DNA from: Glutamicibacter nicotianae
GTDB lineage: Bacteria > Actinomycetota > Actinomycetes > Actinomycetales > Micrococcaceae
NCBI RefSeq assembly: GCF_006539525.1
Contig: NZ_BJNE01000006.1
Span: 62,001 to 126,000, forward strand
Direction: 5' to 3'
Length of the DNA stretch: 64,000 nucleotides
Positions 52,139 through 54,093 of the stretch are shown here, piece by piece. The notes under the pieces were generated by a model that saw nothing but the letters and a program-made list of their open reading frames with translations, ran no database searches and was not told the origin of the DNA. Numbering within the stretch: position 1 is the stretch's first letter; the number at the start of each line of letters is the position of its first letter. The position numbers and the translations under genes are program-made.

Positions 52139-52399
52139 CAGGGTATTTCCTTTGTCTTGCGGGTTGCGACTGGCAATGTTCTGGGCTGCGGCGATCGCCG
52201 CAGTCCATCAGGGCGTGGCCCATGGAGAACAACAATCGGCAGGCTATGAATAATCCCGTTCTGAGTAAATTTCCCACGCCGTTCCGCTGCCTCCATAGGA
52301 ATAATGCTGATCAGTTACTGCCAAACTGGTGTTCAACCCTGCACAAGCTCTTCATCCAGCGCTTCCATAGTGTCGGAGGTCGCCTTTAGAGTCGGTGCC

Positions 52400-53800
52400 A
52401 TGGTGAGAAATTCAAGCGATTTGGCAATCCAGGAAGTTCAATCCCTAACGCAGCTGCGAAAGAGCCTGGCAGACAGTGTTTTGAGAATGCCTCCGGCGCA
52501 TTTTCGAGGTGAAATCGTGGGACGAGTCAGAAAAATGGGATCGAAGAGATGGGCGACGCTGTTTGACGGCGACTGTGCAGTGGAAGTCGAATTCCCTGCG
52601 GCCATGTGCCCATCATGGCTGGGAGATGGCCACCAACTGACGGTGACAGCGAGGCCAAATATCGACTCCTGGCGACGAAATCCAGTGTGGGTTGCCGTTG
52701 GGAACTATGAGAATCACGGTCAACTCGCAGTTCAAGCAACGAGAGACAAAGGCCCTTGGGCGCTGCTCAGGCAAGAAACATCCCGGGAATTCGGCCTCCC
52801 GCTAGAGTCAAGCCAGAACTTGGAGACTATAGAGCCGGGCGGGAAGATCTCCAAGGTGCTAGTGCTGTGTGGCCGGGACAACCAAGTGCTCCTGGACTTT
52901 GTTCGTGGACTGCACCCGAAAGGAGTGAAGAAACGGGTTGCTGTCGAAGTTGCCGAGCTCAGGGTCCAAGGGCCCAGTGCCGTGCGCGAAATCTCGCGTA
53001 AGCTTTCGAGCCTCAAACCGGGCCAGGCCGATGCCGTAATCATATTGCGCGGCGGGGGGTCGTATGCGGACTTCGTCGCCTTCGACGACCGCGAACTGAT
53101 CCAAGCTATTCGCCAATGCGCGCTTCCGGTCATCACCGCACTTGGACACAGTGAGCATGTGCCCTTGGCTGCGCGTGCGGCAACGGCCAGCTTCGATGTG
53201 TCGCAAACGGCCGGGATCGCGATCAGAACGGAAAACAACCGGCGCTGGTTCGCCGGCCAGCCGACCTCCAAACAGCTCAAGACGAAGATAGAACAGCTGG
53301 CCCGGGAACTGTCGGTACAGGGTTCCCGGACTTCGTCGCTGGAGCAGGCGAACGCACGGCTCAGGCAGGAACTTGCCGACACCCGGAATCACGCCGTCCA
53401 ACTACGCGAACGGGGTGATGACCTGCAGCAGCACGCCAGCTTGCAAAACCGGGAAATGCATTCGGATCTGCTGGAGTTGGCCCTGCAGAAAATCCGCCTC
53501 AATTCGCTTTCCCGCGGACTGTGGTGGAGCCTATGGACGGCGCTCACGGCACTGGCAGCCCATGTCGATACGGGCCTCGGCACTGGCCAAACGGTAGCGC
53601 TTTCCATGTTGCCTGCCCTTTGGGCGATCTGGACGTTCACCGGAGGCTATCGGGCTCAAAGGATCATTGACTCATCCGATTGGCGAGGAGCCGTGATGGA
53701 CGTAGATCTATGCTGGCTGCGCCCGCGGATCGCAGGCGCAACGGTGCCGCGTGATCTCTGCTGGTTGCTCAGGCATCGCAACGCATCGCTGCAACAGTGA
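52400..53800 (+). CDS. Exonuclease VII large subunit-like protein with membrane helices
   Basis: A 466-residue protein. Residues about 30-110 look like the OB-fold of XseA (FRGEIVGRVRKMGSKRWATL), and 130-280 contain the XseA core: VLLDFVRGL, LRVQGPSAVREISRKL, RGGGSYADFVAFDDRELIQAI and a GHSEH segment where XseA has GHxxD. A coiled coil (about 310-370) and two hydrophobic helices (about 385-403 and 410-430) follow, absent in ordinary XseA. There is no small-subunit gene (xseB) nearby. The start is the ATG at 52400, with a weak site; the frame begins at 52304. Activity and location are uncertain; a membrane-bound nucleic-acid-binding protein is inferred. Confidence 0.75.
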   Translation: MVRNSSDLAIQEVQSLTQLRKSLADSVLRMPPAHFRGEIVGRVRKMGSKRWATLFDGDCAVEVEFPAAMCPSWLGDGHQLTVTARPNIDSWRRNPVWVAVGNYENHGQLAVQATRDKGPWALLRQETSREFGLPLESSQNLETIEPGGKISKVLVLCGRDNQVLLDFVRGLHPKGVKKRVAVEVAELRVQGPSAVREISRKLSSLKPGQADAVIILRGGGSYADFVAFDDRELIQAIRQCALPVITALGHSEHVPLAARAATASFDVSQTAGIAIRTENNRRWFAGQPTSKQLKTKIEQLARELSVQGSRTSSLEQANARLRQELADTRNHAVQLRERGDDLQQHASLQNREMHSDLLELALQKIRLNSLSRGLWWSLWTALTALAAHVDTGLGTGQTVALSMLPALWAIWTFTGGYRAQRIIDSSDWRGAVMDVDLCWLRPRIAGATVPRDLCWLLRHRNASLQQ

Positions 53801-54093
53801 ATGGCGAACCCACAAGTTGCTGGCATGCGCCCATCGCTCAAGAACTGCGTCTTTTGCCAATTCCCGGTAGGCTAGTACATGGGTCTGCATGTTCTGTGCG
53901 GGCCCCGAATGAAAATAACTCCCAGGACTGACTGACCGTTGGTCCCGACCGCCAGTTTCCCGGTCCTCGGTAGTGACTTTCGCTAGGGCAAATAGCTGCC
54001 CCAGCGCGGGTCTCGATCGAAGACCAGATCTGGGTAGGGCTATACGGTTCGCTCATCCACCATATGGGAGCGATCGAAAGGAGCACCCCCTTA

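Follow-up and report, generated by a model that had tools for sequence, protein, structure and literature searches.

A solo relative of the exonuclease VII large subunit with a predicted membrane hairpin in Glutamicibacter nicotianae and its scattered, often plasmid-borne relatives

Results

An XseA-like gene with an altered active site

The window, that is the whole stretch of 64,000 nt of Glutamicibacter nicotianae DNA analysed here, contains on its forward strand a gene for a 466 aa relative of XseA, the large subunit of exonuclease VII (positions 52400–53800). The reading frame was taken from the ATG at 52400; according to the ORF listing a longer frame from 52304 is possible, and in the comparison with homologues the two nearest ones begin near 52400. 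From the N- to the C-terminus the protein consists of an OB fold, an XseA core, a long coiled coil, two hydrophobic helices and a short basic tail. The relationship to XseA, suggested by the initial annotation, is borne out by the Pfam profile PF02601 (Exonuc_VII_L), which matches residues 153–363 with 89.9 bits against a cut-off of 35.9. This match stops at profile position 222 of 315. The last approximately 90 positions of the profile and the LxRG[YFW] motif are absent according to profile and alignment; both are present in the canonical XseA of the same genome. With the NCBIfam equivalog model for xseA, TIGR00237, the protein reaches 93.1 bits, below the cut-off of 180.

The OB-fold domain (residues ~26–117, 52475–52750) has no Pfam match; its SSB-like, ssDNA-binding type of fold is known from an AlphaFold2 model and from structural matches to SSB proteins (Z about 10 in VIA-align) and to 8txr, the E. 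coli exonuclease VII, which upholds the OB-like start read from the sequence. The nuclease core (residues ~151–290, 52850–53269) has a type II dehydroquinase-like fold, recognised by PF02601 and by matches to 8txr and to dehydroquinases. The RGGGS and GH motifs of XseA are indeed present, and the reading of the motifs in the initial annotation was exact. In an alignment using the residue numbers of an actual E. coli XseA sequence, Asp166 (52895–52897) corresponds to Asp155, Arg217 in the RGGGS motif (53048–53062) to Arg205, and His250 in the GHSEH motif (53144–53158) to His238. All three are kept, whereas His253 of the same motif stands in the place of Asp241.

Structure model and hydrophobic helices

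The AlphaFold2 model, built on a 32-sequence alignment (mean pLDDT 81, pTM 0.59), shows the OB fold, the alpha/beta core, a single helix of residues 290–391, a short turn, a helix of residues 395–424 and a tail of low confidence. Its best match in the PDB is 8txr (Foldseek E 4.6e-17; VIA Z 18.6 across 279 residues), on which OB fold and core could be placed at a sequence identity to 8txr_A of 18%; the rmsd is large, which is taken to reflect differing domain orientations. The core also matches type II dehydroquinases (VIA Z about 9.8), and the exonuclease VII core is reportedly related to dehydroquinase.

The proposed coiled coil appears in the model as the long helix following the core. This stalk (53267–53500) starts at residue 290 and runs unbroken into the first hydrophobic helix (about residues 367–391, 53498–53572), with the second one following at about residues 395–417 (53582–53650). 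Neither of the two reaches the threshold of 1.6 on the Kyte-Doolittle scale with a 19-residue window because they are rich in Trp. On the octanol scale helix 1 scores -7.1 and helix 2 -7.7 kcal/mol; the next best segment in the protein has -0.6, and only 4 of 2000 shuffled sequences had a pair this hydrophobic within 45 residues. In the two Glutamicibacter homologues the same places score -9.6 to -12.1, so that the two helices noticed at first reading are well founded. The canonical proteins tested have no comparable C-terminal segment; their best scores, located elsewhere, are mostly above -1.1, with one of -4.1 near the N-terminus. Basic residues lie on either side of the hairpin, and the basic C-terminal tail (53651–53797), modelled with low confidence, replaces the C-terminal domain of XseA. 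Judged by these flanking residues, both ends of the protein would probably be cytoplasmic.

A second xseA-like gene at a variable site

The window gene lies on contig C6. As stated in the initial annotation, there is no xseB beside it: the only PF02609 match of the genome is found on another contig, C3, where it lies downstream of the canonical xseA. Since this xseAB pair is intact, so is the housekeeping exonuclease VII, and the window gene is a second, different gene. It is flanked by an alcohol dehydrogenase gene on one side and by pnp on the other, with no defence genes adjoining. In two Glutamicibacter relatives (found in the search at 46 and 39% identity) the homologue is likewise located just upstream of pnp; the other upstream genes differ between these loci and the window. 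In genome G012 (L137) the alcohol dehydrogenase gene directly adjoins pnp, and other species have different genes there. The stretch upstream of pnp (52139–54063 in the window) is thus a variable site in Glutamicibacter, with a gene content differing by species. Genes of the window type occur in 3 of 18 Glutamicibacter genomes. The GC3 of the window gene is 0.65 versus 0.80 for pnp.

Relatives on chromosomes and plasmids

A search of 395 Micrococcaceae genomes yielded three close Glutamicibacter copies, above 780 bits, and next a match of 85 bits; the nearest homologue is 45–46% identical. Second XseA-like matches with the same order of parts were found in other Micrococcaceae genomes (L073, L072, L069, L067, L068 and L070) and later at L099. 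A profile of nine members gives these nine at least 470 bits and all canonical XseA below 97, but the nine were themselves part of the profile and the tenth member, L099, reaches only 93 bits. Order- and class-wide profile searches added L099 only. The other matches listed have scores like those of canonical XseA, so that divergent members may be hidden among them. Exact-peptide scans of genome contigs found nothing besides the two Glutamicibacter relatives. In viral contigs no member was found, the phage matches being canonical-type XseA or uncharacterised fragments.

Searches of plasmids were more productive. In Rhodococcus, complete two-helix copies are present on five megaplasmids (88–100% identical to P0002), together with two truncated copies; apart from these two, the frames are open in every copy examined. 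Furthermore, versions with one helix occur on plasmids of four phyla other than that of the window gene: in Paenibacillus polymyxa (pSb31l), Sulfuricystis multivorans, Azospira, Thermus thermophilus (two), Allomeiothermus silvanus and Prevotella. They are annotated as exonuclease VII large subunit with no xseB annotated alongside, and end in a single strongly hydrophobic helix. A relative from Bacteroides ovatus has core and coiled coil and lacks the membrane helix. Like the window protein, the solo plasmid proteins combine the core with a predicted C-terminal anchor and are variable at position 241; they differ from it by having one membrane helix instead of two and by very divergent sequences, and in one Thermus copy the OB fold is shortened or missing. 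The window protein is one member of a widely scattered and often plasmid-borne class of XseA-like proteins with such predicted anchors, which goes beyond what the initial annotation could see.

The plasmid-encoded XseA of haloarchaea (e.g. pNG600, pJ7-1) also has a hydrophobic C-terminal helix after a helical stretch and lacks LxRGY. It differs from the window protein by its one helix, an xseB directly downstream, a full catalytic quartet and a place in the tree with canonical XseA. Four out of four examined (L104 4950–6002, L151 2566–3669, L162 1150–2202 and L163 1153–2205) end in a very hydrophobic helix (octanol -11.6 to -15.4), and each of their genes is followed by xseB. Archaeal exonuclease VII may also be membrane-anchored.

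Catalytic residues, selection and phylogeny

Active-site residues were compared in 21 anchored-type sequences, 13 with two helices including the window protein and eight of the bacterial one-helix type including the Bacteroides protein. Asp155 and His238 are invariant in all 21 and Arg205 is kept in 20, with Thr in L099. At position 241, 11 sequences have D, five N, three H and two E, and the complete quartet is kept in ten. Among the canonical XseA compared, 16 out of 16 have all four residues and 13 out of 16 have LxRG[YFW], the mark of the XseA C-terminal domain, which is absent from all anchored sequences. That three of four catalytic residues are kept despite the divergence argues for a site still in use; the drift at position 241 argues for a different chemistry or a different regulation of it. 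Judged by its sequence, the window protein with His at this position may be active, altered or inactive.

The plasmid homologues are under purifying selection, with dN/dS of 0.11–0.46 among the five Rhodococcus copies. For the chromosomal L067 and L068 the value is 0.29, and 0.60 for the near-identical pair L072/L069. Decay by mutation is not supported by these values.

In a quick ML tree of OB fold plus core, 14 canonical and two haloarchaeal sequences group together (SH-aLRT 98) and the anchored bacterial ones fall outside. The canonical XseA of actinobacteria form a cluster apart from the anchored ones, and six of seven one-helix sequences cluster together. Several branches are long, which makes the deeper branching uncertain, and with it whether the anchored forms arose once. 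Two plasmid-borne xseA-xseB pairs, L148 (2173–4243, Variovorax, adjoining a ThiF gene) and L149 (2202–3651, Acinetobacter), branch off from the other canonical XseA and fall with the anchored sequences.

Neighbouring genes

Conserved neighbours of the window gene are limited to pnp, downstream in the two Glutamicibacter relatives; between lineages the neighbours differ. No conserved partner gene was found for the anchored proteins among the loci compared, and an operon partner was rejected on these grounds. An SRAP/HMCES (SOS response-associated peptidase) gene lies near xseA-like genes at L067 (3328–4083), L072 (3359–4114), L127 (9863–10576) and L149 (4692–5333), that is also on Rhodococcus and Acinetobacter plasmids. 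It is convergent to the member in L067 and L072, both of one genus code, and 2.5 kb distant from one Rhodococcus copy. The Rhodococcus plasmid copies are immediately preceded by an unannotated frame of ~440 aa with a weak HTH match (L103 3072–4388, L127 4549–5868). On the Paenibacillus plasmid the one-helix gene is immediately followed by a gene (L146 3667–4392) for a 241 aa protein containing strongly hydrophobic segments, possibly a partner of the one-helix protein.

Discussion

Exonuclease VII is described as a soluble, XseB-decorated repair nuclease. Its arms reportedly carry XseB, and its catalytic cores are said to sit in the middle of the assembly. The window protein is like E. coli XseA (8txr; PF02601, TIGR00237) in the OB fold followed by a dehydroquinase-like core, in the triad of Asp155, Arg205 and His238 and in the long helix after the core. 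It is unlike it in the His at position 241, the missing xseB, the hydrophobic hairpin, the low identity, the score below the TIGR00237 cut-off and the lack of the second part of PF02601 with LxRGY. Since Asp241, the C-terminal domain, xseB and an equivalog-level score are all wanting, the protein should not be called XseA. It probably works on ssDNA like XseA.

The initial annotation had considered membrane-bound DNA processing or sensing, possibly in defence or DNA uptake. Membrane-bound DNA processing, for which the structural evidence is good, is the best reading of our data; sensing, defence and uptake were not substantiated. The PADLOC defence models gave no match (best E 0.026, covering the coiled coil only) and the neighbours are not conserved. 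In our view the window protein is probably a relative of XseA that acts alone, is anchored to the inner membrane and processes ssDNA at the cytoplasmic face. In such a protein the OB domain would bind ssDNA and the core would act on its phosphodiester backbone via the Asp155/Arg205/His238 triad. The coiled coil would stand where XseA has its XseB-decorated arm and would probably serve in dimerisation, and the two-helix hairpin would hold the protein at the membrane on its cytoplasmic face, with both termini inside. With XseB and the C-terminal domain missing, the enzyme would not be caged like exonuclease VII; confinement to the membrane, in which the arm ends, may substitute for this. Anchoring would limit the enzyme to ssDNA at the membrane, such as conjugating, transforming or phage DNA or intermediates of plasmid replication. 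The accessory spread and the frequent location on plasmids suggest as its substrate ssDNA passing the membrane or arising there.

What counts against an anchored nuclease is that the Kyte-Doolittle scale alone does not recognise the helices in this copy, that no conserved partner gene is indicative of a pathway, and that position 241 is His in the window protein and H, N or E in several lineages, by which catalysis may have been lost or changed. OB fold and core could then bind ssDNA merely to signal or to sequester it. The replacement of this residue in ten of the 21 anchored-type sequences and in several distant lineages, as well as the loss of Arg205 in one, would fit such a catalytically dead binder or sensor. 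However, two invariant and one nearly invariant catalytic residues across very divergent members exceed what binding alone needs, and ten of the 21 sequences have, as mentioned above, the complete quartet; we regard this explanation as rather unlikely. Very improbable is a decaying duplicate of xseA without special role, whose hydrophobic segments would be mere by-products. A patchy second xseA-like gene of lower GC3 than pnp could be seen in this way, but the architecture is conserved down to 34–45% identity, the frames are open in all copies examined but the two truncated Rhodococcus ones, dN/dS in the relatives is well below 1 and the tree places the anchored sequences apart from the clade of canonical XseA from actinobacteria.

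The neighbourhoods give hints at both a barrier function (defence, exclusion) and plasmid upkeep. A defence role of the window protein is possible. The accessory and often plasmid-borne distribution would suit a dedicated anti-phage or plasmid-exclusion effector attacking ssDNA on entry, as would the surroundings of L099, where a Fic protein, a PLD/DEAD helicase and a GIY-YIG nuclease-like ORF (all assigned by eye) are encoded no more than about 9 kb away, and the position of the Paenibacillus copy next to HEPN and TIGR02391 genes. The negative PADLOC result, the lack of conserved neighbours and the setting of the window copy, which has an alcohol dehydrogenase gene and pnp but no defence genes beside it, make a dedicated effector unlikely. 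Handling of ssDNA intermediates of replication or transfer at the membrane in the service of plasmid upkeep, with later capture by some chromosomes, appears equally doubtful. It is in line with the HTH protein preceding the Rhodococcus copies, with a 12.9-kb Thermus plasmid on which the gene is one of six annotated ones and follows a toprim protein and ParA, and with the large plasmids of Azospira and Sulfuricystis; the Micrococcaceae copies, however, share their contigs with chromosomal genes such as pnp, and these contigs have no recognised plasmid backbone.

In the literature searched, no report was found that links exonuclease VII to membrane anchoring and none that describes such a protein. 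The scattered relatives of the same build suggest an undescribed group of enzymes handling ssDNA at the cell membrane. Only tentatively do we extend the anchored-nuclease reading of the window protein to a whole class of solo, tail-anchored, exonuclease VII-like proteins in at least five bacterial phyla, located mainly on plasmids and at variable chromosomal loci, which would use a modified active site (D, N, E or H at 241) to act on ssDNA entering or leaving the cell at its cytoplasmic membrane. Its members simply go by the name of exodeoxyribonuclease VII large subunit, so that such a class would be hidden in annotation. The naturally occurring variants D, N, E and H at position 241 would be a test bed for the chemistry of exonuclease VII. 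If true, a recurring XseB-free, membrane-tethered and often plasmid-borne form would imply that exonuclease VII has been redeployed to sites at which ssDNA passes through or encounters the membrane.
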